Part shown: positions 19,108 through 32,513 of the stretch, one piece after another
Numbering within the stretch: position 1 is the first letter of the stretch
Layout of the letters: each line of letters opens with the position of its first letter
DNA from: Enterococcus rotai
GTDB lineage: Bacteria; Bacillota; Bacilli; Lactobacillales; Enterococcaceae
Length of the DNA stretch: 64,000 nt
Reading direction: 5' to 3'
Assembly (NCBI RefSeq): GCF_001465345.1
Contig: NZ_CP013655.1
Span: 1,724,673-1,788,672, forward strand
The notes under the pieces: model-generated
The model's database searches: none
The model's input: the letters and a program-made list of their open reading frames with translations, nothing else
Told to the model about the DNA's origin: nothing
Made by a program: the position numbers and the translations under genes

Positions 19108-19318
19108 AGAGGTTGCAAACAAGGTATATCTGTGTTAAAGTAATCCTCATGCGACGAGTTGACTTAATCAGACAGTTTCGACTGTTCCGTTTTGACGGCT
19201 AGTGATTAACAAAACAACAGAGGCACATATGTTAAATCATACCTACCGGATGTAGGCGTGTCGGATAAATATTTTTGTGGAGAAGATGTTATCTATTTAT
19301 TTTTATAAATACTGTGGT
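19108..19318. other. Gene-free 3' region with no assigned function
   Basis: About 210 nt between the oxidoreductase stop and a strong terminator at 19319. It contains small self-complementary stretches such as CAGACAGTTTCGACTGTTC and CTACCGGATGTAGG but no ORF. It may be a long 3' untranslated region or a small RNA ending at the terminator. I recognise no RNA family. Confidence 0.3.
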
Positions 19319-19500: not shown

Positions 19501-19563
19501 TTTAAATAGGCCACTAAAAATAGTATACTAATAAAGTTGCACTTGTGTAAGTGCAACTTTTTT
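19501..19563 (+). promoter_or_regulatory. Promoter and immediate hairpin before the PRD regulator
   Basis: TTTAAA (19501-19506) and TATACT (19524-19529) are 17 nt apart. The predicted start falls at about 19536, where a perfect hairpin begins: GTTGCACTT, loop GTGT, AAGTGCAAC, then six T (19558-19563). The transcript would therefore begin with a terminator-like stem-loop. Confidence 0.45.
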
Positions 19564-19616: not shown

Positions 19617-21506
19617 TTGGTGAGTAGGATGTCGCTGCACTTATCAAAACGGGAAATAAAAATTTTGCTGCTGCTTTTAGATTTAGAAGACAGCGTGACA
19701 ACAAAAGAATTGGCAGAAACCTTTCAAGTTAGTGTGCGGACAATTAAATATGATTTAGAAAATGTCCGGGATTGGTTTAACGAACAAAACGTATTGCTAC
19801 AAACCCGCCGCAACAAAGGGATTTGGTTGGAAATACCTGATTCAGAACGTTTGACCTTGAAAAATGAAATTATCGAAGTTGAGAGATTTGAAACCTATCC
19901 TGATCAAGAATTACGGGTTAATCAGTTGATTTTCCGTTTGTTGTTAGCCCAATCAGCCTTGACTTCTCAGGAGTTGGCGGATGAACTGCAGGTGAGTAGA
20001 AATACCATCATTAATGATTTGGACCGTGTAGATGAGTTGATTCAACACTACAATCTAAAACTTAATCGTCAAAGTCGCCAAGGATTTTCGATCATTGGTG
20101 AAGAAAGCAAGATTCGTTTGCTGATGGAATATATCACGCAAAAGGAAATAACCGAATATGATATTTATCAAATCATGAGTTACTTTGTTCAGTCCGGACA
20201 ACAGAAAAAAATGCAGGAAGTCCATGTTGGTGTCAATACGATTTTTCAAAAAATCTACCAAGTTGCGCTAAAAGAAATGACAGGACTTTTGGATCCTTCT
20301 TTATTCGATCAATTTAACTATGCTGAAATTCTTTCGATCACATTGCGAGTGGCGATTGCGTCATCTAGAATGCAGCTCCATCATACGGTCGGGACTTATA
20401 AGATGTTGACGAATCAAAAAGTGTTGCAGCAAAAGCAAGAGTTGCCGTTTTTATTGATGAAAAAAGTTTTCGATCATTATGAATTACCGCTTTTAGCAGA
20501 TGAATATTTCTATATTTATAGCGATGTCTTTGTAGCGAATAATCAGCAGGACATCGTAGGGCTGACAGAAGAGTTGATCAAGGATGTCTCAGAAGAAATC
20601 AAATTTCCCTTTTATCGAGATCGGCAATTATTTACAAATCTTTTTGCTCATTTATCCTTACGATTAACTAAGAAACACCTCTTTATAAATGAGTACAATC
20701 CGTTTGTTGATGATATCAAGGCAAAGTATCCACAATTATTTTCAGCGATCCAGCTGGCTAGTCAAAGTGATATTGTCGGATCAGCATTGTTGATCAATGA
20801 TTCATTTATCGCCTATATTGCGTTGCACTTTTTGGTGGCTTACGAGAAAAATCTTCATGAAGTCAATGTTGTCCGAATTGTCTATGTTTGTTCCACAGGT
20901 TTAGGGGTAACGAGTTTGATCGAGCAAAAAATTTTAGAAGAAGTTTCAAATGTTGAAATTGCTGGGTTTGCTTCTGTTTTAAATGCAGTTGATGTAATAG
21001 AAGAAAAAAATCCCGACTTAGTTTTGAGTATTTTTCCAATAGAAATCGTGAATCGTCCGTTTATCAAAGTGAATCCGCTACCGACACAAGCAGATCTTAA
21101 TACTGTTCAAGAAGAGGTCAATAAAATTTTGACACACACGAAATCAGGAAAAGTACCACGCTTGATTCCTCGACAACAGGTTAAAGAAAAACAAGGAATC
21201 GAGGCGGAAAGCCGAGATATTCTTGTACGAGCCTATGTGATTTATGAAGAGCTGCTCAAGGCTTTTGCAGAGAAATTGACTCAAGAGTATAAGGAAGCAT
21301 TTTTACTACACGTGATGTTGATGGTCCACCGGATTACGTTTGATAGTCAATATGAAAATGAAGGCAATATTGTGAAAGAAACCTTATTAGCTCAACAAGA
21401 ACTGGTAGAACAAATCGAACGGATTTTTGCTAAGAATGATTTGATGGTTAATCAAGCAGAAATTACTGCTTTATTGAATTATATAAGAGAGGAGGAGCAC
21501 GTATGA
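19617..21506 (+). CDS. PRD-containing transcriptional regulator of the sugar-acid cluster (MtlR/LicR type)
   Basis: The protein has 629 residues. Two N-terminal HTH domains lie at about 8-65 (TTKELAETFQVSVRTIKYDL) and 100-150 (QELADELQVSRNTIINDL). Two PRD-like regions follow, then an EIIB-like domain with Cys in VCSTGLGVTS near residue 424, and a C-terminal region that resembles another PRD. Such activators are controlled by PTS phosphorylation of PRD His and EIIB Cys residues. TTG 19617 follows AAGGGA at 7 nt; GTG 19620 and ATG 19629 are alternatives. The stop overlaps the small PRD gene by ATGA. It most likely controls the twelve genes downstream. Confidence 0.85.
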   Translation: MVSRMSLHLSKREIKILLLLLDLEDSVTTKELAETFQVSVRTIKYDLENVRDWFNEQNVLLQTRRNKGIWLEIPDSERLTLKNEIIEVERFETYPDQELRVNQLIFRLLLAQSALTSQELADELQVSRNTIINDLDRVDELIQHYNLKLNRQSRQGFSIIGEESKIRLLMEYITQKEITEYDIYQIMSYFVQSGQQKKMQEVHVGVNTIFQKIYQVALKEMTGLLDPSLFDQFNYAEILSITLRVAIASSRMQLHHTVGTYKMLTNQKVLQQKQELPFLLMKKVFDHYELPLLADEYFYIYSDVFVANNQQDIVGLTEELIKDVSEEIKFPFYRDRQLFTNLFAHLSLRLTKKHLFINEYNPFVDDIKAKYPQLFSAIQLASQSDIVGSALLINDSFIAYIALHFLVAYEKNLHEVNVVRIVYVCSTGLGVTSLIEQKILEEVSNVEIAGFASVLNAVDVIEEKNPDLVLSIFPIEIVNRPFIKVNPLPTQADLNTVQEEVNKILTHTKSGKVPRLIPRQQVKEKQGIEAESRDILVRAYVIYEELLKAFAEKLTQEYKEAFLLHVMLMVHRITFDSQYENEGNIVKETLLAQQELVEQIERIFAKNDLMVNQAEITALLNYIREEEHV

Positions 21507-21841
21507 AGTTAACGGACGATGCTCAAAAAATCATTGATGAAAGTCCGAATAAAGTTGAGTTGGAGGCAGCACTTGAACAAATCAACGAGTTATTAGAAGA
21601 ACAAGTAATTCAACCGACTGAATTACAATGGACGATTTTGATCAATCACGTTAATGAAATGATCAAACGGTCGATTGCAGGAGAAAAAATGTCTGGGGTC
21701 GATCCACAAATGTTTGAAGAAGTATCTAAAGAGGCACTAATGATTTCAGATAAAGTTGTTCAACACATCGGTAATTTACCGCAAGATGAAATGTACGTAT
21801 TATCCATTCATTTTGAAGCAGCTAGACAAAATGAATCATGA
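21503..21841 (+). CDS. Small single-PRD protein (EF_0829-type family)
   Basis: This 112-residue protein is little more than one PRD domain, with candidate phospho-acceptor His49 (ILINHVNEM) and His103 (VLSIHFEAA). It starts inside the stop of the large regulator (ATGA). I recall an unnamed conserved family represented by E. faecalis EF_0829 that always accompanies the next genes. Lacking any DNA-binding domain, it may act as a phosphorylation relay or as a modulator of the regulator. This role is inference. Confidence 0.75.
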   Translation: MKLTDDAQKIIDESPNKVELEAALEQINELLEEQVIQPTELQWTILINHVNEMIKRSIAGEKMSGVDPQMFEEVSKEALMISDKVVQHIGNLPQDEMYVLSIHFEAARQNES

Positions 21842-21862
21842 GAAAGACTCGCTATTATTAGA

Positions 21863-21909
21863 TTTAAAAACTATCTAGCTTTGCAGGCTAGCCTGTTCAG
21901 CTTTTAAAA
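21863..21909 (+). repeat. Internally deleted copy of the dispersed hairpin element
   Basis: Only the ends of the element remain: TTTAAAAACTATCTAGCTT joined to CAGGCTAGCCTGTTCAGC and TTTTAAAAATT. CAGGCT and AGCCTG still pair. It sits directly before the GGAGGAA ribosome binding site of the next gene. Confidence 0.65.
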
Positions 21910-21924
21910 ATTGGAGGAATTATT

Positions 21925-22278
21925 ATGATAACAGTAGTAATCGCAGATCGCTTAGGAAAAGGTCAAAATGTAGCAAAAGGGGTAGAAGCCGCAGGAGGAA
22001 AAGCAGTTGTTGTTCCAGGAATGGGTGCAGATATGCGTTTAGGTGACGTGATGCAGCAAGAAAATGCAGATCTTGGCATCTCATTTTGTGGAAGTGGTGG
22101 TGCTGGAGCGTTAACAGCAGCAACAAAATATGGGTATCCAGAACGTCATGGTATGCGTTCAATCGATGAAGGTGTAACGGCGATCAATGATGGCAAAACA
22201 GTTTTAGGCTTTGGTTTTATGGATCAAGAAGAATTAGGTAAGCGGATTGTTGAAGCGTATATGAAAAAGAATGGCTGA
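21925..22278 (+). CDS. Glycine-rich SFCGS family protein
   Basis: The protein has 117 residues and is soluble, with an alternating beta/alpha pattern. The hallmark SFCGSGGAGALTAATKYG has the conserved Cys55. It belongs to the unnamed family I recall as EF_0830. The Cys followed by a Gly/Ser-rich loop resembles the phospho-Cys loop of PTS EIIB proteins (for instance C-G-x-G-x-x-S/T). In EIIB the Cys is near the N terminus, so homology is unproven. The conserved neighbours (PRD protein, DUF4312, DUF4311, DUF4310) suggest a shared complex. TTGGAGGAA precedes the ATG. Confidence 0.8.
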   Translation: MITVVIADRLGKGQNVAKGVEAAGGKAVVVPGMGADMRLGDVMQQENADLGISFCGSGGAGALTAATKYGYPERHGMRSIDEGVTAINDGKTVLGFGFMDQEELGKRIVEAYMKKNG

Positions 22279-22287
22279 TTAGCGGCT

Positions 22288-22470
22288 GGTATCTAGCTAC
22301 GCGGGCTAGCACTATGCTCTGCTTCGATCTCATCAATTCCTAAGAGCTAAAGCTCCAAGGATTGAAGGTCTTCGGAAAAAAGATAAAATCTGCCTGTGGC
22401 AAAAAGCGCCACAAACATATTTTCCTATTTTTCTGTCAGAGCTGAACGAGCCCGTTCCGCTTTTAAATTT
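22288..22470 (+). repeat. Dispersed hairpin element, long copy with an internal insertion
   Basis: The ends are TATCTAGCTACGCGGGCTAG and GAACGAGCCCGTTCCGC, where CGGGCT pairs with AGCCCG. The conserved TCGGAAAAAAGATAAAA and TTTTCCTATTTTTC flank the stem TGTGGC, loop AAAAAGC, GCCACA. About 58 nt are inserted at 22311-22368 and contain their own small hairpin (GAGCTAAAGCTC). It ends at the ribosome binding site of the DUF4312 gene. Confidence 0.7.
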
Positions 22471-22485
22471 AGGAGGGAAAAACCA

Positions 22486-22860
22486 ATGGAGAAAGTAACT
22501 GTAAAAAAACGTCAGGTCATTCAGGTCGAAGGAACAGGAAAAGAGAAGAATCTAGCCTTTGCTAATGCTCTAAATCAAATTCATAATCGTGTCTTAAAAG
22601 AAAAAGATGATGTGATCGTTAGAATCGAGCCGCTTGATATTCAAATTGTAAAGGCAGAACAAGAAACCTTTACAGAACGTTTTTTCTTTTTCTTCTTACC
22701 GCGAACACGGGCTGATTATCGTGTGTTGCTGGATGTTGAGGTAGAAATCACCTTGATCGAAATGGAGACAGTTCCGTTTGTAGAGAAAAGAGTTGCTGAT
22801 CCAAACGGTCTTCCCCTCCCTTTTGGCAAGAAAAAACGAATGCAGAAGGAGGCAAATTAA
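22486..22860 (+). CDS. DUF4312 family protein
   Basis: The protein has 124 residues. The N-terminal half is amphipathic (RQVIQVEGTGKEKNLAFANA), followed by a hydrophobic patch RFFFFFLPRTRADYR and a basic C terminus. It could bind the membrane surface. AGGAGGG (22471-22477) sets the ATG at 22486; the longer frame upstream runs through the hairpin element and is not credible. The gene abuts DUF4311 with no gap (TAA then ATG), so the two are coupled. Function is unknown; it is known to me only as part of this conserved cluster. Confidence 0.78.
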   Translation: MEKVTVKKRQVIQVEGTGKEKNLAFANALNQIHNRVLKEKDDVIVRIEPLDIQIVKAEQETFTERFFFFFLPRTRADYRVLLDVEVEITLIEMETVPFVEKRVADPNGLPLPFGKKKRMQKEAN

Positions 22861-23643
22861 ATGGATGTTTTAGTCGTTTTACTCAAGTCTTTATTGATTG
22901 GGGGAGTAGTTGGATTTGCGGCAGGAGCAGGAGCTGCCAGAATGTTTCATGCACCGAGCACACAGGGATTAGGTGCATTTAGAACATTAGGTGAGATGAA
23001 TGCCTGTGAGGGAGATGCAGCGAGTCATTTTTCTTTTGGGCTAGGGTTCTTCTTTAATGCTTGGGCGTCAACAGTGGGTGCTGGAGCCTTTACACAAGAT
23101 GTAGATCATCGTGTAATACCTAACTGGGCAGCTGCAGCTTTATTAGTAAAAAATAAAAATGTTGCTGAAACAATGCATAATCCTAAGAAAATGGGGATTT
23201 CAGGTGCAATCATTGGGATGTTGGTCGTTGCATTCTTAAATACGACAGCTTCAGCAATTCCTGAGTCACTACAAGTAACGGCAGTCGCTGTCTTAGTGCC
23301 AGCAGCAAATCTTTTGATCAACACAGTAATGCCAGTTTTATTCTGGTTAGCAGCAATCGATGCTGGTAAACGTTCAGGTCTTTGGGCAACAATTTTTGGC
23401 GGACTTGCAACGATGATCATGGGCAATGCTGTTCCTGGTGTTGTACTTGGAATTTTGATTGGTAAAGGTGTAGATGAAATTGGTTGGAACAAGGTAACGA
23501 AAAGTATGATGGCGGCAGTTATTCTATTATTTGTCTTTAGTGCCTTTTTCCGTGGCTTTGATTTACAAATGATTGAAAGCTTCCGCTTACAGATTCCAGG
23601 CTGGCTACAAAATATGCATGATGTTTTTAGTATTGGTAAATAA
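22861..23643 (+). CDS. DUF4311 family integral membrane protein
   Basis: The protein has 260 residues with about six or seven membrane segments rich in Gly and Ala. The N-terminal region holds the unusual polar motif LGEMNACEGDAASHFSFG (residues 43-60), and the segment NAWASTVGAGAFTQDVDHRV is also striking. Charged and Cys residues inside a membrane protein suggest a translocation path or cofactor site. It is paired with DUF4310, another Gly/Ala-rich membrane protein, and I infer that the two form the channel of a transporter. No established transporter family is recognised by eye. Confidence 0.78.
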   Translation: MDVLVVLLKSLLIGGVVGFAAGAGAARMFHAPSTQGLGAFRTLGEMNACEGDAASHFSFGLGFFFNAWASTVGAGAFTQDVDHRVIPNWAAAALLVKNKNVAETMHNPKKMGISGAIIGMLVVAFLNTTASAIPESLQVTAVAVLVPAANLLINTVMPVLFWLAAIDAGKRSGLWATIFGGLATMIMGNAVPGVVLGILIGKGVDEIGWNKVTKSMMAAVILLFVFSAFFRGFDLQMIESFRLQIPGWLQNMHDVFSIGK

Positions 23644-23667
23644 TTCAGAAGAAAGTGAGGAACTGAA

Positions 23668-24330
23668 ATGGATGAAATAGTAGAGTTGGAAAAAAAGAAT
23701 TTTTGGTTTGCTGATTGGTCATTTCCGATTTTAGTTGGCTTATTGTCAGCAGGTGTTTTTGCTGGAACACATATGTATATTGAACATGGTGTGGGAGCTT
23801 TTAATGAGGTAGCGATCGTGGCTATGTTAAAAGCTGGAATGGACGGTGGTTCATATGGTGCAGCTGCAGCATTTGGTGCAAGTTTCTTATTTGCCCGAAT
23901 TTTGGAAGGATCACTTGTTGGAATTTTAGATATTGGCGGTGCGATCTTAACAGGAGTTGGAATTGGCGTTCCAGCGATTCTATTGAGTATGGGGATCACA
24001 GCACCTGTTGAAAATTTTGGACTTTCCTTATTAACTGGGATGGTTCTTGGTTTAATTATCGGTGGCATTATTATTGTGATTCGCAAATTTACGATCAACC
24101 AGTCAAATTCCACTTTTGGTGCAGATGTTATGATGGGCGCTGGAAATGCTTCAGGTAGATTCTTAGGTCCTTTGATCATTATTAGCGCGTGTGGTGCTTC
24201 TGCACCAATCGGTATTGGCTCGATTATTGGCGCTGTGATTTTCTATGTGTGGAAAAAGCCGATTGCTGGTGGCGCAATACTCGGTGCAATGATCTTTGGT
24301 GCAATATTCCCGGTTGATTTACCTAGTTAA
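23668..24330 (+). CDS. DUF4310 family integral membrane protein
   Basis: The protein has 220 residues with about five or six membrane segments. The N terminus is acidic and cytoplasmic (MDEIVELEKKNFWFADWS). Gly/Ala-rich helices follow, with motifs GMDGGSYGAAAAFGASF and SACGASAPIGIGSIIG. GAAAGTGAGG precedes the ATG, 24 nt after the DUF4311 stop. Together with DUF4311, DUF4312, the SFCGS protein and the PRD protein it makes the conserved core of an uncharacterised cluster. A transport role is inference from topology and from the catabolic enzymes downstream. Confidence 0.78.
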   Translation: MDEIVELEKKNFWFADWSFPILVGLLSAGVFAGTHMYIEHGVGAFNEVAIVAMLKAGMDGGSYGAAAAFGASFLFARILEGSLVGILDIGGAILTGVGIGVPAILLSMGITAPVENFGLSLLTGMVLGLIIGGIIIVIRKFTINQSNSTFGADVMMGAGNASGRFLGPLIIISACGASAPIGIGSIIGAVIFYVWKKPIAGGAILGAMIFGAIFPVDLPS

Positions 24331-24355
24331 AGATGAAGAAATGTTGCACTTTCCT

Positions 24356-24379
24356 TTTGAAAACCGTTTACATTATAAT
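24356..24379 (+). promoter_or_regulatory. Internal promoter with a cre-like site before EIIC
   Basis: GAAAACCGTTTACA (24360-24365 and flanks) matches 12 of 14 positions of a catabolite-responsive element but lacks the leading TG in register. TATAAT lies at 24374-24379. Position and sequence suit CcpA control of the second half of the cluster. The -35 is poor. Confidence 0.35.
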
Positions 24380-24454
24380 GTTACCATGTTATTATGAATG
24401 GGAAATAATTTGATTTTTTATTCATATTAATTTTTTGAACGGAGGACAAAAGAA

Positions 24455-25774
24455 ATGAATGGTTTTGTGCAGTGGATGGAAGTAAAATTGATGCCGATTG
24501 CCAATAAATTTGGCTCTCAAAGACACATGACAGCAATTAGAAAGGGACTTATCGCAACGATGCCTTTGACAATTGTTGGTGCCTTTTTCACCGTATTTCA
24601 GAATATTCCAATTGATGCTTATATGAAGTTTATTGAGCCTTATCAAGCAGTGTTGGATATTCCATCTCGTTATACAATGGGGATTTTGGCGTTGTATGCA
24701 ACTTTTGGGATTGCCTCTTCCTTGGCAACAAGTTACAAATTGGATTCTTTGACTTGTGGCATCTTGGCGGTGATGGCCTTTTTGGTCACAGCAGCACCCC
24801 CAACAAGAGTTTTTGAAGATGTTAAAGATGTTATCGGGGCTGGGCGTTATATTAATTTAGCGAATATTGGTTCAGCTTCATTATTTGGGGCAATCGTGAC
24901 AGCACTTGTCTCTGTTGAAATTTATCGTTTCTTTATTCAAAAGGATATTACAATCAAAATGCCAGATGGTGTTCCACCAGAAGTATCTAATTCATTTATC
25001 GCGTTGATTCCTGGCGCTGTGATTTTATTGTTATTCTGGGTGATTCGTCATGTGATTGGTTTTGATTTAAATGGTTTCCTAAGTACTTTATTAATGCCAT
25101 TGAAAGATACGTTAGCCGGAAATAGTTTATTTGGTGGACTACTTACAGTCTTCTTGATCTGTTTCTTCTGGGTTTTAGGGATTCACGGACCAGCGATTAT
25201 GGGACCTGTTATCAGACCGTTTTGGGATATGTCGATTGCAGAAAATACACTTGCTTTCCAAGAAGGTGCCTCTGTTCATCATTTACCGAATATCTTTACT
25301 GAACAATTTTTACAATGGTTTATCTGGATCGGCGGTGCTGGTACTACTTTAGCTTTAGTCGTTTTAATGATGTTTTCTAAATCAACGTACCTGAAAAGTT
25401 TAGGTCGTTTATCTTTCTTACCAGGTTTATTCAATATTAATGAACCAGTGATTTTTGGTACACCGATTGTCATGAACCCGATCTTAGGGATTCCATTTAT
25501 CGTGGCACCTTTGATCACAACAACATTTTCTTACTTTTTAACGGTCACAAATGTCATCCCGATGATGGCGGCCCGTTTACCATTTGCCATACCGGCACCT
25601 GTTGCTGCTTGGATGAGTACAAACTGGAGTGTTCCAGCAGCCCTACTTGTCTGTGTCAACTTTGCAATTACTTTGGCGATCTACTACCCGTTCTTCAAAG
25701 TATACGAAAAACAACAATTAGACAAAGAAGCAGAAGAGTTAGCAGCTGAACAAAAAGCGAAAGCAGCTGCTTAA
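24455..25774 (+). CDS. PTS transporter EIIC, lactose/cellobiose family
   Basis: The protein has 439 residues and around ten membrane segments. The family motifs GIHGPAIMG near residue 244 and NINEPVIFGTPIVMNP near 328-343 mark the sugar-binding region. The C terminus is a Lys/Glu/Ala-rich tail. EIIC moves the sugar while EIIB phosphorylates it, yet no EIIA or EIIB gene lies in the cluster. It must borrow them from elsewhere, or cooperate with the SFCGS protein as an unusual EIIB. It follows DUF4310 after 124 nt with its own promoter-like signals. Confidence 0.9.
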   Translation: MNGFVQWMEVKLMPIANKFGSQRHMTAIRKGLIATMPLTIVGAFFTVFQNIPIDAYMKFIEPYQAVLDIPSRYTMGILALYATFGIASSLATSYKLDSLTCGILAVMAFLVTAAPPTRVFEDVKDVIGAGRYINLANIGSASLFGAIVTALVSVEIYRFFIQKDITIKMPDGVPPEVSNSFIALIPGAVILLLFWVIRHVIGFDLNGFLSTLLMPLKDTLAGNSLFGGLLTVFLICFFWVLGIHGPAIMGPVIRPFWDMSIAENTLAFQEGASVHHLPNIFTEQFLQWFIWIGGAGTTLALVVLMMFSKSTYLKSLGRLSFLPGLFNINEPVIFGTPIVMNPILGIPFIVAPLITTTFSYFLTVTNVIPMMAARLPFAIPAPVAAWMSTNWSVPAALLVCVNFAITLAIYYPFFKVYEKQQLDKEAEELAAEQKAKAAA

Positions 25775-25779
25775 TTAAA

Positions 25780-26088
25780 ATGAGAGGGAGGGTAGTCGCT
25801 GTACTACCCTCTTTGGTGATTAAGGTCATGATAATTTGGTTCATCGTATTTTTTATTCTTAGTCAAGTAATGATTGAAAGAAACTGGCTGCCTACAAGAT
25901 TTACAGATTTACGCTTGCTTCATCTATGTGTGGCTTCAATAGGGGTGATTTTTCTAGCGATCGTAGTTGGGATTTTAGTTAAACAACCGCTATTCATAGT
26001 AGGAAGTGTCACCATTTTGTGCAGCTCAGTTATTTCTTGGAAGTACAGACATAAATTCGACCATATAAAGCGAGGGCAAAATCAATGA
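25780..26088 (+). CDS. Small hydrophobic membrane protein of unknown function
   Basis: The 102-residue protein has two or three hydrophobic segments (about 13-31, 42-62 and 66-84) and a basic tail. It begins 5 nt after the EIIC stop without a clear ribosome binding site, and ends with an ATGA overlap into the DUF871 gene, so it is translated by coupling. A perfect 9-bp hairpin (GAGGGTAGT 25788-25796, ACTACCCTC 25803-25811) lies in its first codons. Later starts at 25816 (GTG) or 25828 (ATG) are possible. I recognise no family. Confidence 0.55.
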   Translation: MRGRVVAVLPSLVIKVMIIWFIVFFILSQVMIERNWLPTRFTDLRLLHLCVASIGVIFLAIVVGILVKQPLFIVGSVTILCSSVISWKYRHKFDHIKRGQNQ

Positions 26089-27173
26089 AAAGAGCATTAG
26101 GGGTATCTGTTTACCCAGATCATAGTGAAATAGAAAAAGATAAAGCTTATTTAAAAAAGGCAAGTGAATGTGGATTTTCACGGATCTTTATGAGTATGTT
26201 GGAAGTAACTGAAGGAAAAGAAGTAGTGAAAGAAAAGTTTAAGTCATTGATTTCCTATGCAAAAGGTTTAGGCTACGAAACGATTTTAGATGTAGCACCG
26301 AATATTTTTGACGAATTAGAAATTTCGTATGATGATTTAACCTTCTTTTATGAAACGGGCGCTGATGGCATTCGTTTGGATGTAGGATTTGATGGTAATA
26401 AAGAAGCAAAGTTGACCTTTAATCCTTTTGATTTAGCGATCGAATTGAATATGAGTAATGATGTGGCTTATCTAGATAATATTTTGACTTATGAAGCCAA
26501 TGTGCCATTTCTTTACGGTTGTCATAATTTTTATCCGCAAGAAGGTACGGCATTGCCGTATGATTTCTTTGAGCGTTGTAGTGTTCGCTTCAAAAAGCAT
26601 GGCATTCGCACAGCAGCGTTTATCAATTCTCAAGCAGGCAAAATCGGTCCATGGGATGTCAATGATGGGTTGCCAACATTAGAAATGCACCGACATTTAC
26701 CAGTAGATGTTCAAACGAAACATTTATTTGCGACAGGTCTGATCGATGATGTGATTATAGGCAATGCTTATGCGTCAGATGAAGAATTAGAGTTGTTAGG
26801 TAGCTTAAATCGTTATCAATTAGAATTAGCAGTGGAATTTACGAAAGAGGCAAGTGACGTTGAAAAAGAAATTACATTGACAGAACAGCATTTTCGCCGT
26901 GGAGACATTACAGATCAAGTGGTTCGTTCTACTGAAGTTCGTAAAAAATACCAACATAAAGCCAATCCAGCGCATGATAATACCCAAGAGTTTCAAGTAG
27001 GTGATGTTGTGATCGGTAATGATGCATTCGGGAAATACAAAAATGAACTGCAAATTGTTTTACAGCCGCATTCAGACGACCGTAAAAATAAAGTAGGGCA
27101 AATAACAGAGAAAGAATTGTTGTTGTTAGATTTTGTAAAACCCTGGACAAAATTTAGATTTACAGAAAAGTAG
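26085..27173 (+). CDS. DUF871 / MupG-like TIM-barrel glycosidase
   Basis: The protein has 362 residues. The N terminus RALGVSVYPDHSE and the pattern GFSRIFMSML are typical of the DUF871 family. A TIM barrel fills about 1-235 and a cyclophilin-like domain 245-360. MupG of Staphylococcus aureus in this family hydrolyses MurNAc-6-phosphate-GlcNAc, a phosphorylated muropeptide disaccharide delivered by a PTS. Here it follows an EIIC, which suggests that a phosphorylated disaccharide is split in the cytoplasm. Its start overlaps the previous stop (ATGA), and the amidohydrolase gene follows after 8 nt. Confidence 0.85.
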   Translation: MKRALGVSVYPDHSEIEKDKAYLKKASECGFSRIFMSMLEVTEGKEVVKEKFKSLISYAKGLGYETILDVAPNIFDELEISYDDLTFFYETGADGIRLDVGFDGNKEAKLTFNPFDLAIELNMSNDVAYLDNILTYEANVPFLYGCHNFYPQEGTALPYDFFERCSVRFKKHGIRTAAFINSQAGKIGPWDVNDGLPTLEMHRHLPVDVQTKHLFATGLIDDVIIGNAYASDEELELLGSLNRYQLELAVEFTKEASDVEKEITLTEQHFRRGDITDQVVRSTEVRKKYQHKANPAHDNTQEFQVGDVVIGNDAFGKYKNELQIVLQPHSDDRKNKVGQITEKELLLLDFVKPWTKFRFTEK

Positions 27174-27181
27174 GGGATAAA

Positions 27182-28291
27182 ATGAGTTACGACTTAATTA
27201 TAAAAAATGGCAAAACCATTGAAGGAAAACCGATAGAAGTAGCAATCAATGCTGGAAAAATCGTAAAAATTTCAGAAAAAATCGAAGCAGATAGTAAAGA
27301 ACAAATCGAATTAGCCACTGATACTTATCTATCAGCTGGTTGGATTGACGATCATGTTCATTGTTTTGAAAAAATGACTTTATACTACGATTTTCCAGAT
27401 GAAATTGGTGTTAAAAAAGGCGTAACAACCGTAATTGATGCGGGTACGACAGGTGCAGAAAATATCCATGAATTTTATGACTTAGCCAAAAAAGCGAAAA
27501 CCAATGTGTATGCTTTAGTGAATATTTCAAAATGGGGGATTGTTGAACAAGACGAATTGGCAGATCTTAGTAAGGTGAAAAAAGAATTAGTTCATAAAGC
27601 ATTGACTGAACTGCCAGATTTTGTTGTAGGAATCAAAGCCCGCATGAGTAAAACGGTGATTGGGGACAATGGGATCACTCCTTTAGAAATGGCTAAGAAG
27701 ATTCAAAAAGCAAACAATGATCTGCCTCTGATGGTGCATATCGGCTCGGCTCCACCAGAATTGGATGAAATCCTAGCAAATATGTCTAAAGGTGACGTAC
27801 TGACCCATTGTTTCAATGGCAAACCAAACGGGATTTTGGATCAATCAACAGATAAGATTAAAAAATTTGCATGGGAAGCCTATGATAAAGGGATTGTTTT
27901 TGATATTGGTCACGGAACGGACAGTTTCAATTTTCGTGTTGCTGAAACGGCATTATCTGAAGGCATGAAAGCAACATCAATCAGCACAGATATTTATATC
28001 CGCAATCGTGAAAAAGGACCTGTGCATGATTTAGCTACTACAATGGAAAAATTACGTGTAGTTGGTTATGACTGGTCTGAAATCATTGAAAAAGTAACCA
28101 TTGCTCCTGCTGAAAATTTTCGATTTGAGTCAAAAGGTCAGTTGAAAGAAGGATATGATGCTGATATCACGATCTTTACAATTGAAGCAGGTCAAAAGAT
28201 CTTGACGGATTCCAACGGATTTACCAGAGAAGCAAAAGAATTGATCAAACCTGTAAATACCATTATTGGAGGAACAGTCTATGACAATTAG
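27182..28291 (+). CDS. Amidohydrolase / deacetylase family metallohydrolase (EF_0837 type)
   Basis: The protein has 369 residues and the TIM-barrel amidohydrolase layout. The metal ligands His58 and His60 lie in GWIDDHVHC, a Lys in VVGIKARM is the likely carbamylated bridge, and later ligands occur in LMVHIGSAP, VLTHCFNG and DIGHGTDSF. It resembles dihydroorotase and D-aminoacylase relatives. In this operon a role in removing an N-acyl group from an amino-sugar acid before the DgaE step is plausible. The start codon follows GGGGATAA. The last 11 nt overlap the DgaE start. Confidence 0.87.
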   Translation: MSYDLIIKNGKTIEGKPIEVAINAGKIVKISEKIEADSKEQIELATDTYLSAGWIDDHVHCFEKMTLYYDFPDEIGVKKGVTTVIDAGTTGAENIHEFYDLAKKAKTNVYALVNISKWGIVEQDELADLSKVKKELVHKALTELPDFVVGIKARMSKTVIGDNGITPLEMAKKIQKANNDLPLMVHIGSAPPELDEILANMSKGDVLTHCFNGKPNGILDQSTDKIKKFAWEAYDKGIVFDIGHGTDSFNFRVAETALSEGMKATSISTDIYIRNREKGPVHDLATTMEKLRVVGYDWSEIIEKVTIAPAENFRFESKGQLKEGYDADITIFTIEAGQKILTDSNGFTREAKELIKPVNTIIGGTVYDN

Positions 28292-29375
28292 TTATGAAAA
28301 ATTCAACCTAAAAGAAGTCATCAATGCCTCAGGTAGAATGACGATTTTAGGGGTATCAAAAGTGTCAGAAAATGTCTTAGCTGCTCAAAAATTTGGCGGC
28401 GAACATTTCTTTGAAATGAGCGAGTTAAGTATTCATACAGGTGCTTATTTAGCGAAACTTTTAGGAGTTGAAGATGCCCAAGTCGTTTCTTCTGCATCTG
28501 CCGGAATTGCGCAATGTGTGGCAGCGTTGATCGGTGAAGGGTCCGTTTATCACGCTTATCATCCGTATACTGATAAAGTGACCAAACGTGAAATCATCCT
28601 ACCAAAAGGGCATAATGTCGATTACGGCACACCTGTCGAAGTAATGGTCGAACAAGGTGGTGGTCAAGTTGTAGAGGCTGGTTACGCTAATATGTGTTCA
28701 CCAGAACATATCGACATGATGATCACGGATCAAACAGCTGCGATTCTTTATATCAAGAGTCATCATACTGTTCAAAAAAGTATGTTAAGTGTTGAAGAAG
28801 CAGCAACCATAGCGCAGAAACATAAGTTACCGTTGATTGTGGATGCTGCAGCAGAAGAGGACCTGTTCAAATACATCAAAGCAGGTGCAGATTTAGTGAT
28901 TTATAGTGGTGCAAAGGCTATCGAAGGTCCAAGTGCCGGACTGGTGATCGGGAAAAAAGACTACATCGAGTGGATCCGTCTCCAAGGCAAAGGCATCGGC
29001 CGTGCAATGAAAATCGGCAAAGACAATATCTTAGGCTTTACCCAAGCTGTGGAAGATTACGTGAAAAACGGCAGTGAATCAGGCGAGTCGATGCAAGCAC
29101 GATTATCACCATTTATTGAGGGACTGAATCAGATCACAAATATTGAAGCCAAAAGCGTTCAAGATGGAGCGGGCAGAGATATTTACCGTGCTAGTATCAA
29201 AGTAAGCGGCACAAAATCAGCCAAAGAAGTCATCCAAGAACTAAGCGCTGAGAGCCCAGCAATATATACTCGTGAATACCAAGCCAACAACGGTATCATC
29301 GAATTCGATATCCGTTCAGTCAATGAAGAAGAAATGAATAAAATCGTGACTCGTTTAACCGAAATCATGAAATAA
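28281..29375 (+). CDS. dgaE: DgaE-family PLP-dependent ammonia-lyase
   Basis: The protein has 364 residues, a fold type I PLP enzyme related to SelA. The Schiff-base Lys212 lies in VIYSGAKAIEGPSAG and the PLP-binding Asp188 in LPLIVDAAAEED. DgaE of Salmonella converts D-glucosaminate 6-phosphate to 2-keto-3-deoxy-6-phosphogluconate plus ammonia. Here the same reaction is inferred from family and from the adjacent DgaF. The start at 28281 follows TGGAGGAACA. The frame opens 5 codons earlier. It is not a selenocysteine synthase: it lacks the long N-terminal domain, and no selenium genes are near. Confidence 0.85.
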   Translation: MTISYEKFNLKEVINASGRMTILGVSKVSENVLAAQKFGGEHFFEMSELSIHTGAYLAKLLGVEDAQVVSSASAGIAQCVAALIGEGSVYHAYHPYTDKVTKREIILPKGHNVDYGTPVEVMVEQGGGQVVEAGYANMCSPEHIDMMITDQTAAILYIKSHHTVQKSMLSVEEAATIAQKHKLPLIVDAAAEEDLFKYIKAGADLVIYSGAKAIEGPSAGLVIGKKDYIEWIRLQGKGIGRAMKIGKDNILGFTQAVEDYVKNGSESGESMQARLSPFIEGLNQITNIEAKSVQDGAGRDIYRASIKVSGTKSAKEVIQELSAESPAIYTREYQANNGIIEFDIRSVNEEEMNKIVTRLTEIMK

Positions 29376-29403
29376 AAAAATTATAAACAGGAGTGAATCA
29401 ATC

Positions 29404-30147
29404 ATGACATTAACACCAAATTATTTAGAAAACCGTATTTGCCTAAACGTCCTAGCCAACTCAGTAGAAAATGCGAAAGACTGTTATGAAGCAGCAGAAG
29501 GACACATTGTATTAGGTGTATTATCTAAAAACTATCCAACCGATGAAGCCGCGATCGAAGACATGAAAAAATACGCCGCTGCAACAAACAATGCTTTATC
29601 AGTTGGTTTAGGTGCAGGTGATCCAAATCAAAGCCAAATGGTATCAAGAATTTCAAAAGAATTACAACCCCAACACGTAAACCAAGTCTTTACAGGTGTA
29701 GGTACATCACGTGCATTATTAGGCCAAAACGAAACAATCGTCAATGGTTTAGTATCACCAACAGGTAAAGTAGGTATTGTCAATATCGCTACAGGTCCTC
29801 TAAGCTCACAAACCCCAGCAGGAGAAGTGACGATCGAAACAGCGATTCGTTTATTACAAGACATGGGCGGCAGCTCAATCAAATTCTTCCCAATGAAAGG
29901 TTTAGCACATATCGAAGAATATAAGGCAGTCGCTGAAGCGTGTGCTAAATATGACTTCTACCTAGAGCCAACAGGGGGAATCGATTTAGAAAACTTTGAA
30001 GAAATCGTACAAATCGCAGTAGATGCCGGCGTGAAAAAGATTATCCCTCACGTATACAGCTCAATCATCGATTCCGCAACAGGGGATACAAGACCAGAAG
30101 ATGTGAAAACATTACTTGGTATGATCAAAAATACATTGGAAAAATAA
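29404..30147 (+). CDS. dgaF: DgaF-family 2-keto-3-deoxy-6-phosphogluconate aldolase
   Basis: The protein has 247 residues, a TIM barrel of the KDGP aldolase family. It has a probable Schiff-base Lys in SSIKFFPMKG near residue 160 and the phosphate-binding stretch EPTGGIDLENF. The reaction is cleavage of KDPG to pyruvate and glyceraldehyde 3-phosphate. CAGGAGTG precedes the ATG, 28 nt after dgaE. DgaE and DgaF side by side match the D-glucosaminate pathway of Salmonella, but the transporter here is different. The codon choice looks like that of well-expressed genes. Confidence 0.87.
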   Translation: MTLTPNYLENRICLNVLANSVENAKDCYEAAEGHIVLGVLSKNYPTDEAAIEDMKKYAAATNNALSVGLGAGDPNQSQMVSRISKELQPQHVNQVFTGVGTSRALLGQNETIVNGLVSPTGKVGIVNIATGPLSSQTPAGEVTIETAIRLLQDMGGSSIKFFPMKGLAHIEEYKAVAEACAKYDFYLEPTGGIDLENFEEIVQIAVDAGVKKIIPHVYSSIIDSATGDTRPEDVKTLLGMIKNTLEK

Positions 30148-30276
30148 AAGCTGAGTGAGCTCGTTCAGCGTTGACAGAAAAATAGGAAAATATGCCTCGT
30201 TCATATTTTGTCTTTTTTCCGAAACGCAAGCTCACAAAGCTAGATAAAAATAAAAGCTGAACGAACTCGTGAAGCT
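30147..30276 (-). repeat. Dispersed hairpin element between aldolase and kinase
   Basis: GTGAGCT and AGCTCAC form the outer arms, and CAGAAAAATAGGAAAA faces TCTTTTTTCCG. The central stem is shortened to AATATG, loop CCTCGTT, CATATT. A small extra hairpin, AGCTGAACGAACTCGTGAAGCT, follows. Its left end touches the aldolase stop codon. Confidence 0.7.
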
Positions 30277-30297
30277 AAGAAATAGGCAGGGATCGAC

Positions 30298-31308
30298 ATG
30301 AGAATTGCGGCATTTGGTGAAATAATGATGCGTTTGACGCCACCAGAATATCTGATGTTGGAACAAACCAAAGAATTACGTTTAGACTTTACAGGAACAG
30401 GAGTTAATATTTTAAGTAACCTCGCTCATTTTGGCTGTCAAACAAGTTTACTGACAAATCTTCCTAATAACCGATTGGGTGAAGCAGCTAAAGCAAGTGT
30501 CCGCCAGTTAGGGATTCAAGATCGTTGGATTGGTTTTTCTGGTGATCATATTGGTTCTTATTTTGCAGAAATGGGGTTTGGACCAAGACCGACACAAGTA
30601 ACGTATCAAAATCGTCGAAACAGTTCATTTGGTGTGAGTGGCGCTTCTAATTATGATTTTGATGCTTTTTTAGCTGAAACTGATTTAGTGCATATTTGCG
30701 GGATTTCGTTAAGTTTGACAAAGGAAACACGCGAAGCAGCTTTTGTTTTAGCTGAAAAGGCTCATGCATTAGGAAAAAAAGTTTGTTTTGATTTTAATTT
30801 TCGACCTAGTTTGAATGAAGTACATGGTGTTGCTTTTATGAAGGAACAATATGAAAAAATGTTACCCTATTGTGATTTAGTTTTTGGCAGTCAGCGAGAT
30901 TTGACTGATCTCTTAGACATGCCGCTAAGTGAAACCGTGGATTGTGCGAATCAGTTTGAAGAATTAGTTCATCGATTTATGACGAAATATCAGATTGAGC
31001 GTTTTGCTGGAACTATCCGTCAAGGCGAAGGGGATAAACATTATTTGACAGGATTTCTATTTGATTCAGAAAACTACGTACAGGCAGCTCCAAGAGAAAT
31101 CATTCATTTAGATCGGATCGGGGCTGGTGATGGCTATGCTGCTGGAATTTTACTTGGATATAGTGAATCCTGGTCATTAGTTGAAAGTGTAGAGTTTGCC
31201 ACAGCAAATGGTGTTTTAGCGCATACGATCCAAGGTGATGTGCCTTTAACAACGCGTAAACAAGTCCGACATATCATGGAACAACCGACAGTGGATTTGA
31301 TCCGTTAA
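30298..31308 (+). CDS. PfkB-family carbohydrate kinase (probable 2-keto-3-deoxygluconate kinase)
   Basis: The 336-residue ribokinase-fold protein has the ATP/substrate motif DRIGAGDGYAAGI near residue 275, where the Asp of GAGD is catalytic. The N-terminal motif FGEIMMRLTPPEYL and the sugar loop TGTGVNILSNL are shared with KdgK relatives. It would phosphorylate 2-keto-3-deoxygluconate to feed the DgaF aldolase. It is the last gene of the cluster, separated from dgaF by a hairpin element and closed by a terminator. The ribosome binding site GGCAGGGA is mediocre. Confidence 0.83.
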   Translation: MRIAAFGEIMMRLTPPEYLMLEQTKELRLDFTGTGVNILSNLAHFGCQTSLLTNLPNNRLGEAAKASVRQLGIQDRWIGFSGDHIGSYFAEMGFGPRPTQVTYQNRRNSSFGVSGASNYDFDAFLAETDLVHICGISLSLTKETREAAFVLAEKAHALGKKVCFDFNFRPSLNEVHGVAFMKEQYEKMLPYCDLVFGSQRDLTDLLDMPLSETVDCANQFEELVHRFMTKYQIERFAGTIRQGEGDKHYLTGFLFDSENYVQAAPREIIHLDRIGAGDGYAAGILLGYSESWSLVESVEFATANGVLAHTIQGDVPLTTRKQVRHIMEQPTVDLIR

Positions 31309-31502: not shown

Positions 31503-32513
31503 ATGACCGATGAAAATATTTGGAGAGCACTAGATGATGATGTTTTGAAAGATAGTATTCGAAAACGACCAAGTATGTACATTGGTGGGATTGGTCCGAC
31601 TGGCTTAGAGAGCATGGTCCTGCAAGTGTTGGATCATCTACTGCAATTAGCAGTTGATTTAAAGCAAACAGAACTTTCGATCGAGCTTTCTGAAAAACAA
31701 TTTATTTTTTCTTTTTTTAGTAAAAAAGGACTATTTTTAGATAAAACTCCAGAAGAACAATATACACCGCCCTATCTTTTTCTATCGGTGGTCAATGCTT
31801 TATCGGAACAATTAGGTTTTGGGGTGGAAAAATTAGGTAAGCGGACGATCCAAATCTATCAAAATGGACAGCTGAATAAAAAAGCATTGATCCCTTCTGA
31901 AGATGAGGGGCAACGAATCGAACTCGCTTTCACACCGGATGAAACATTATTTGGAAACAAGCCATTATCTTATTTTATCTTATTCAATCGCTGTCAAGAG
32001 CTTGCTATGTTGAACAGTGGTTTGACGATTTCACTAACGGATGGGAAGCAGCAAAAAAATTATTTTCATTATGAACAAGGGCTTGTAGACTATATTTTTC
32101 AAAAAGATGATAGCATTACGAGAAGCGGTCAGCCGTTGATTATCAATACGATCAGTGAAGGCGTCACGATCCAAGCTGTAATTTCTAAAAATGGTTCGAC
32201 TAGTATTAAAGACAGCTTTGTCAATGGTCATTTGCCTTCAGATGGTGGGACGCACCTTGATGGCTTTATTCAAGGAACGGTGGATGCTATCAATCAGTTT
32301 TTAGAAGAAACCAATCGCTTGAAATATCTGACCATAGATAATTTTCCTGAACGATTCGATGTTGTGCTTTCAATTAAAGTCAAACGACCAAGGTACACTG
32401 GGGCAATCAAAAAGAAAATCAGGAATCCAGAGCTGTATAAAATCGTGAAGGAAGCTGTTTTTGCGGAAGTAGCAACCTTTTTAAAACGGCATCCAGCTTG
32501 GTATTTAAATTAA
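31503..32513 (+). CDS. GyrB/ParE-like protein without ATPase residues or TOPRIM domain
   Basis: The 336-residue protein aligns with the N-terminal half of GyrB. RKRPSMYIGGIGPTGLESMV matches the GyrB start, SVVNALSEQLG a later strand, and SDGGTHLDGFIQGTVDAIN the transducer domain. The catalytic Glu and Mg-binding Asn of GyrB (EIVDN) are Gln41 and His45 here (QVLDH), and the ATP-lid Gly motif is absent. No TOPRIM or C-terminal domain follows. It is therefore a pseudo-ATPase. It could bind gyrase or topoisomerase IV as a regulator, but that is speculation. AGGAGGAG precedes the ATG, and YaiI follows after 23 nt. Confidence 0.82.
   Translation: MTDENIWRALDDDVLKDSIRKRPSMYIGGIGPTGLESMVLQVLDHLLQLAVDLKQTELSIELSEKQFIFSFFSKKGLFLDKTPEEQYTPPYLFLSVVNALSEQLGFGVEKLGKRTIQIYQNGQLNKKALIPSEDEGQRIELAFTPDETLFGNKPLSYFILFNRCQELAMLNSGLTISLTDGKQQKNYFHYEQGLVDYIFQKDDSITRSGQPLIINTISEGVTIQAVISKNGSTSIKDSFVNGHLPSDGGTHLDGFIQGTVDAINQFLEETNRLKYLTIDNFPERFDVVLSIKVKRPRYTGAIKKKIRNPELYKIVKEAVFAEVATFLKRHPAWYLN

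Follow-up and report, generated by a model that had tools for sequence, protein, structure and literature searches.

The window analysed here is a stretch of 64,000 nucleotides from Enterococcus rotai (contig NZ_CP013655.1, positions 1,724,673 to 1,788,672 of the forward strand), whose genome is a single contig of 3,746,111 bases. The system in question is a cluster of thirteen plus-strand genes that fills positions 19617-31308 of the window, and in which two importer branches, PRD-SFCGS-DUF4312-DUF4311-DUF4310 (hereafter the DUF module) and EIIC-orf102-MupG-PfkB, are merged beside the amino-sugar-acid enzymes AmiH, DgaE and DgaF. The families were confirmed by Pfam and TIGR profile searches, with Enterococcus species as the closest named relatives among the matches listed, and the genes, families and gene order given in a first-pass annotation of the sequence all stood on the plus strand. 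That annotation had placed five small proteins at the start of the interval; all five are present, but the interval opens with a regulator of the phosphotransferase system (PTS) type which lies outside those five. The genes are the following (EIIA, EIIB and EIIC denote PTS enzymes IIA, IIB and IIC).

19617..21506, plus strand: REG, transcription regulator (Pfam HTH_11/Mga/PRD), with a CSTG motif that we take to be EIIB-like
21503..21841, plus strand: PRD, stand-alone protein of the EF_0829 family, proposed His phosphocarrier (TIGR03582, 129 bits, cut-off 69)
21925..22278, plus strand: SFCGS, predicted RpiB fold, proposed Cys phosphocarrier (PF14272, 212 bits)
22396..22860, plus strand: DUF4312 subunit (PF14189/TIGR03578, 104 bits); in our judgement the true start is probably 22486
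22861..23643, plus strand: DUF4311, membrane subunit (PF14188/TIGR03580, 392 bits)
23668..24330, plus strand: DUF4310, membrane subunit (PF14187/TIGR03579, 352 bits)
24455..25774, plus strand: PTS EIIC of the lactose/cellobiose family, second importer (PF02378, TIGR00410)
25780..26088, plus strand: orf102, small 102-residue protein of the EIIC branch
26085..27173, plus strand: MupG-type 6-phospho-glycosidase of the EIIC branch (PF19200, PF05913; PDB relative 1x7f)
27182..28291, plus strand: AmiH, EF_0837-type amidohydrolase/deacylase (TIGR03583; PDB 2ics, E 5.5e-192)
28266..29375, plus strand: DgaE-type pyridoxal phosphate (PLP) ammonia lyase (TIGR01437, 570 bits; PDB 7lc0, E 2.4e-83); the true start is probably 28281
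29404..30147, plus strand: DgaF, 2-keto-3-deoxygluconate-6-phosphate (KDGP, also KDG-6-P) aldolase (PF07071, 366 bits; PDB 3lm7, E 1e-112)
30298..31308, plus strand: PfkB sugar kinase, which accompanies MupG (PF00294)

The five small families and the amidohydrolase all score above the curated cut-offs (TIGR03577-03580, 03582 and 03583). The statement that these families are named after E. faecalis and Aeromonas sets is borne out by the NCBIfam names, and all but one of the six models are without an assigned function. Within the cluster the EIIC has neither an EIIA nor an EIIB gene beside it, and orf102 belongs to no Pfam family at E 0.01. Since the window DgaE reaches 355 bits where NF047797, the equivalog of the proven D-glucosaminate-6-phosphate lyase, has its cut-off at 600, we regard it as a relative of that enzyme. 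In the alignment of REG the PRD residues His345 and His404 are kept in 69/69 and 68/69 rows and the EIIB-like Cys425 in 57/69, and Pfam gave no EIIB match for this protein.

At least 491 of 596 candidate stretches, scanned with each species represented by one genome, encode DUF4311 relatives, and the best 80 of these (the closest matches, some on contigs that end inside the operon) were compared gene by gene. In this set we found REG in 71 loci, PRD in 76, SFCGS in 78, DUF4312 in 77 and both DUF4311 and DUF4310 in 80, together with AmiH in 76, DgaE in 75 and DgaF in 72; EIIC, orf102, MupG and PfkB occur in 17, 16, 17 and 15 loci, one of the EIIC genes (L052) being part of another operon that includes EIIA and EIIB genes. 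The conservation of the cluster is well above chance. The core order REG-PRD-SFCGS-4312-4311-4310-AmiH-DgaE-DgaF, partly rearranged in some loci, is found in Lactobacillales, Bacillus relatives, Enterobacterales, Aliivibrio, Chromobacterium and Iodobacter, and four distant loci (L167-L170, the PRD of L167 being detected by Pfam only) have the order REG-AmiH-PRD-SFCGS-4312-4311-4310-DgaE-DgaF. AmiH is missing from four loci, of which L041 ends at DUF4310; the other three (L020, L027 and L029) have the DUF genes with room downstream and none of the pathway enzymes. These three are the only ones of the 80 in which the DUF genes stand away from sugar-acid enzymes, and the tie between the two gene sets drawn by the first-pass annotation holds. 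The module is uncommon when genomes are drawn evenly from the phylum, appearing above cut-off in 6/299 with that of the window counted; the distant loci L167-L170 belong to this draw, and so does G244, which is the same locus as L027. In one genome (G274) an in-frame TAG interrupts the DUF4311 gene of an operon with a fused PRD-SFCGS gene (L169, 9102-9821, minus strand; L006).

Different importers stand before the same enzymes. AmiH-DgaE-DgaF is fed either by the DUF module or by EIIC-orf102-MupG with PfkB, and a mannose-type PTS stands before DgaE-DgaF in other operons. DgaF is present in 48 of 78 Enterococcaceae genomes, and we chose 40 of 63 places as DgaF contexts, 10 of them repeating loci of the best 80 and 30 being new. 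MupG-AmiH-DgaE-DgaF-PfkB with EIIC and without the DUF genes accounts for 15 of the 40, the DUF module without MupG for 8 (one of which, L157, lies near an unrelated EIIC operon), both branches merged as in the window for 8, and a mannose-type PTS accompanied by an activator of the DgaR type, AmiH being absent, for 6; 3 fit no class. In one further arrangement (L081) the DUF operon neighbours a mannose-PTS/DgaR/DgaE/DgaF set. MupG is absent from 63 of the best 80 DUF-module loci, and on a quick DgaE tree (116 rows, 105 of them different, with several long branches) the importer type changes at least 15 times. The single linear pathway of import, splitting, deacylation, deamination and cleavage previously read from the gene order is not supported, as there are loci that have one branch without the other. 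The suggestion of a transport system of no known class fares better, the module behaving like an importer and neither Pfam nor the fold search assigning it a class. We consider it probable that the DUF module is an importer for the amino-sugar-acid pathway.

The kinase accompanies the glycosidase. Among the best 80 loci PfkB is found in 14 of the 17 with MupG (one of the three others, L015, ends within DgaF) versus 1 of the 63 without it, and in the 30 new DgaF contexts in 18/18 with MupG versus 0/12 without. In 64 DUF-only blocks with the full enzyme set (59 when repeats are removed) there is no kinase and no extra open reading frame (ORF) of 100 or more residues inside the block, in a count that skipped ORFs overlapping core genes by more than 30%; L169 was flagged in this check solely because a distant DgaE fragment extended the block. 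Thus, a kinase is supplied where a sugar acid without phosphate would be released by the glycosidase, and none is supplied where import falls to the DUF module. The DUF-module importer may therefore phosphorylate its substrate itself.

The lyases of these operons keep the same key residues. A Lys, which we take to be the PLP residue, and His162/His163 are conserved in all 115 DgaE rows (104 distinct), and positions 301, 332 and 346 are Arg in 115/115 rows, including 61/61 of the distinct sequences from DUF-only loci. Those three arginines lie near a docked phosphate in the Salmonella lyase (DGL), and DgaABCD supplies D-glucosaminate-6-phosphate to that enzyme, according to PMC9529869. Where a genome has both a merged and a mannose-PTS operon, their DgaE/DgaF share 98.9/100, 99.2/100, 95.9/97.2 and 82.4/90.2% identity in four cases; the DgaE copies of other genomes are less alike (74.7-78.7%). 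The two DgaE/DgaF copies per genome in L126/L127 and in L128/L129 are 99-100% identical even though they stand in different operons, which suggests recent copying or gene conversion. For E. faecalis, earlier reports give ef_0839 and ef_2975 as identical (PMC2912369), dgaEF as duplicated (PMC7396535) and an amino-sugar role as proposed for EF0839/EF2975 (PMC7701990).

The two small soluble proteins carry residues that could serve a phosphate relay. In PRD, H49 and H103 are invariant (74/74 rows); in 76 of the 78 loci its gene and the SFCGS gene are within 200 bp of each other, and a natural PRD-SFCGS fusion occurs in a single case (L169). A PRD is no recognised form of enzyme IIA, the two His being what this one offers for such a role. 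The predicted structure of SFCGS has the Rossmann-type fold of RpiB/LacAB, and its C55-G-S-G motif, present in 76/76 sequences, aligns to the catalytic Cys66 in the CGTG-type loop of E. coli RpiB in a hhalign comparison that reached 37% probability with a joint SFCGS and YhfU profile and gave no match with SFCGS alone. Against the RpiB family PF02502, 15 of 31 SFCGS members match with a best E of 0.0024, the window protein reaching 12.1 bits for a cut-off of 24.7, and no PTS_IIB is among the 11 Pfam families matched by the 31 members at E up to 10. The earlier description of two membrane and two soluble DUFs therefore falls short, as PRD with its invariant His pair and SFCGS with its fold and Cys are more than soluble DUFs. 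With regard to the general PTS proteins, the N-domain of Enzyme I (PF05524) was found in 40/40 carrier genomes searched. In a draw of 298 genomes Enzyme I is present in 9/9 carriers (that of the window excluded) versus 107/288 others (p 1.7e-4), and the same 9/9 compares with 52/85 genomes that have the sugar-acid dehydratase family (p 0.016), kinship being ignored in both comparisons. In a single case (G159) Enzyme I is encoded downstream of the operon.

A counterpart of the PRD-SFCGS pair stands in yhf operons. YhfU (DUF2620) was matched to SFCGS by hhalign at 88.6% (E 2.7e-6, a single comparison) and by hmmsearch at E about 1e-7 in both directions, the sets searched being small (a dozen to 76 sequences); the Pfam DUF2620 model is matched by 14 of 31 SFCGS members at a best E of 0.0048, below the cut-off. 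On these profile comparisons YhfU is a probable homologue of SFCGS, and so is YhfY of PRD, with a hhalign value of 96.6%. DUF2620 occurs in 12/398 genomes of the phylum, that of the window included, with YhfY and YhfT alongside in 12/12, and both the YhfU Cys and the first YhfY His are kept in 13/13 sequences. The yhf regulator is YhfZ and not a PRD protein, which argues that PRD belongs with the SFCGS-type protein rather than with a regulator. The genome of the window also has a yhf operon (L102, G000:C1:3396000-3413000), so that both PRD/small-Cys modules coexist there. In five yhf loci (L105, L106, L107, L110 and L111) a protein of 369-373 residues with a GSSS/GSTS..GTDGGGSV-like motif, presumably amidase-signature-like, is encoded near yhfT.

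We propose that PRD-SFCGS-DUF4312-DUF4311-DUF4310 would import and phosphorylate an N-acylated amino-sugar acid in a PTS-like manner, with parts that belong to no known enzyme II class. Phosphate would pass from phosphoenolpyruvate through Enzyme I and HPr to His49 and/or His103 of PRD, then to Cys55 of SFCGS and finally to the sugar acid, for which the two membrane proteins DUF4311 and DUF4310 would form the binding site, DUF4312 being an accessory. The substrate may be acylated because AmiH is present and D-glucosaminate-like because DgaE and DgaF are, N-acetyl-D-glucosaminate (GlcNAc1A) being our guess. AmiH would remove the acyl group from the 6-phosphate product, DgaE would then deaminate it to KDG-6-P, and from this DgaF would yield pyruvate and glyceraldehyde-3-phosphate by cleavage. 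In the second branch EIIC would import a disaccharide, which the MupG-type enzyme may split, and PfkB would phosphorylate the freed sugar acid or 2-keto-3-deoxygluconate. What the analysis shows are the gene sets, the importer exchange, the conserved residues, the predicted fold of SFCGS, the lack of a kinase within the block and the presence of Enzyme I; transport, phosphorylation, the order of the relay and the substrate are what we infer. That the module is a phosphorylating, PTS-dependent importer seems to us evenly balanced, and the full His-Cys relay through PRD and SFCGS is put forward tentatively.

Several observations weigh against this proposal. The PRD gene overlaps that of REG in the window and adjoins it in 41/71 loci, and in Vagococcus allomyrinae (L020, 7030-9240) REG and PRD form one 736-residue protein, so that the role of PRD is perhaps regulatory. 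The second YhfY His is kept in 10/13 sequences and absent in 3/13, and YhfT has no significant profile match to, and no detectable homology with, DUF4311 or DUF4310. The AlphaFold model of DUF4311 consists of long helices (pLDDT, the predicted local distance difference test, 78.8) and found no fold match in the PDB, and 35 DUF4311 and 35 DUF4310 members matched no PTS EIIC model at E up to 10. DUF2232, another membrane family without a known function, is weakly matched by 34 of 35 DUF4311 members (best E 1.9e-4; the window protein reaches 13.9 bits for a cut-off of 27.8). Other EIIC genes are found in 21/21 carrier genomes checked, and the presence of Enzyme I alone therefore proves little. 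The fold of SFCGS is that of an isomerase and not of a known enzyme IIB, which makes an enzymatic role possible. Finally, one DUF-only operon (L056) has PfkB directly downstream, and a kinase elsewhere in the genome is a possible remaining alternative.

In a rival reading the DUF module is a non-phosphorylating importer that PRD and SFCGS only gate or regulate, and the phosphate is added upstream or downstream of the DgaE step by a kinase whose gene lies elsewhere. It would agree with the coupling and fusion of PRD to REG and with the downstream kinase of L056, and also with the ong pathway for GlcNAc1A, which, according to PMC9537276, has no early phosphorylation and uses an SSS-family transporter and KdgK. 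The 59 distinct DUF-only blocks without an internal kinase, the invariant phosphate-site Arg of DgaE, the near-identity of DgaE/DgaF to the mannose-PTS copies in some genomes and the Enzyme I of all carriers searched speak the other way, and we judge it unlikely. The fold of SFCGS would also suit an RpiB-like isomerase or epimerase acting on an acyclic sugar-acid phosphate, with DUF4312/4311/4310 as the importer, with or without PRD. However, in one alignment the position of the RpiB ring-opening His (88 in SFCGS) is N/E/A/Q/R/K and that of the following Asn (89) is D/E, the known D-glucosaminate-6-phosphate route needs no isomerase as set out in PMC9529869, and the probable homologue YhfU stands in an operon with different enzymes, all of which makes this role rather improbable. 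That the five genes are a membrane-bound sensor acting on REG through the PRD and EIIB-like parts of that regulator, with import by unlinked systems, is very improbable: the EIIB-like Cys of REG, its coupling and single fusion with PRD and the three loci with the module but no pathway enzymes beside it would fit, whereas the module replaces bona fide importers before the same enzymes and yhf operons keep the PRD/small-Cys pair with a different type of regulator.

We return to the PTS-like, phosphorylating importer. In its widest form it would be a new class of PTS permease with a PRD His carrier, an RpiB-fold Cys carrier and two non-EIIC membrane families, of which yhf would be a divergent branch; this we regard as conceivable, though short of an even chance. 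If true, it would add a class of group-translocating importers whose counterparts of the classical IIA and IIB are a regulatory domain and an isomerase fold, and it would give functions to five families that Bacillota and Proteobacteria carry at hundreds of loci. It would likewise offer a starting point for the yhf operon of E. coli K-12, and would point to a way in which gut and environmental bacteria use oxidised amino sugars that probably come from chitin.

The surroundings of the cluster hold three further features. The Enterococcus small RNA Ref68 (Rfam RF02840, 89.6 bits) lies at 19150-19285 on the plus strand between an upstream oxidoreductase gene and REG. A terminator-like hairpin of 12 pairs with a T-rich tail (19533-19560, plus strand) stands immediately 5' of REG, and could either terminate the upstream transcript or be an attenuator. 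Downstream, 31503-32513 (plus strand) encodes a stand-alone 336-residue protein whose sole match is a DNA_gyraseB domain, with a homologue in 12 of the best 80 loci.

Among known systems, the RpiB/LacAB isomerases share the fold of SFCGS but have the ring-opening His and its Asn neighbour, which SFCGS does not keep. The ong pathway of Pseudoalteromonas, likened here by description, resembles the proposed route in that it deacetylates and deaminates on the way to KDG-6-P; PMC9537276 gives as its own features import of free GlcNAc1A by an SSS transporter, a fold-type III deaminase and a requirement for KdgK, which acts after deamination. The E. coli yhf operon (yhfZ-Y-U-T-php-W-X-S), to which the E. 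coli record assigns no function, has the PRD protein YhfY and the SFCGS-like YhfU beside a membrane protein, and differs in its other enzymes, in its regulator and in YhfT, which is not detectably related to DUF4311/4310. The Salmonella dga system, a mannose-family PTS (DgaABCD) with DgaE and DgaF, has homologous DgaE and DgaF with the phosphate-site Arg kept, and by analogy also combines soluble and membrane importer subunits; the window differs from it by another importer, an added deacylase and a DgaE below the equivalog cut-off. In the databases the five small families and the amidohydrolase match the hypothetical families EF_0829/AHA_3910 to EF_0837. To these EF_0829-EF_0837 models the present analysis adds the boundaries of the module, its exchange with two other importers, the RpiB fold of SFCGS and the His/Cys pair.

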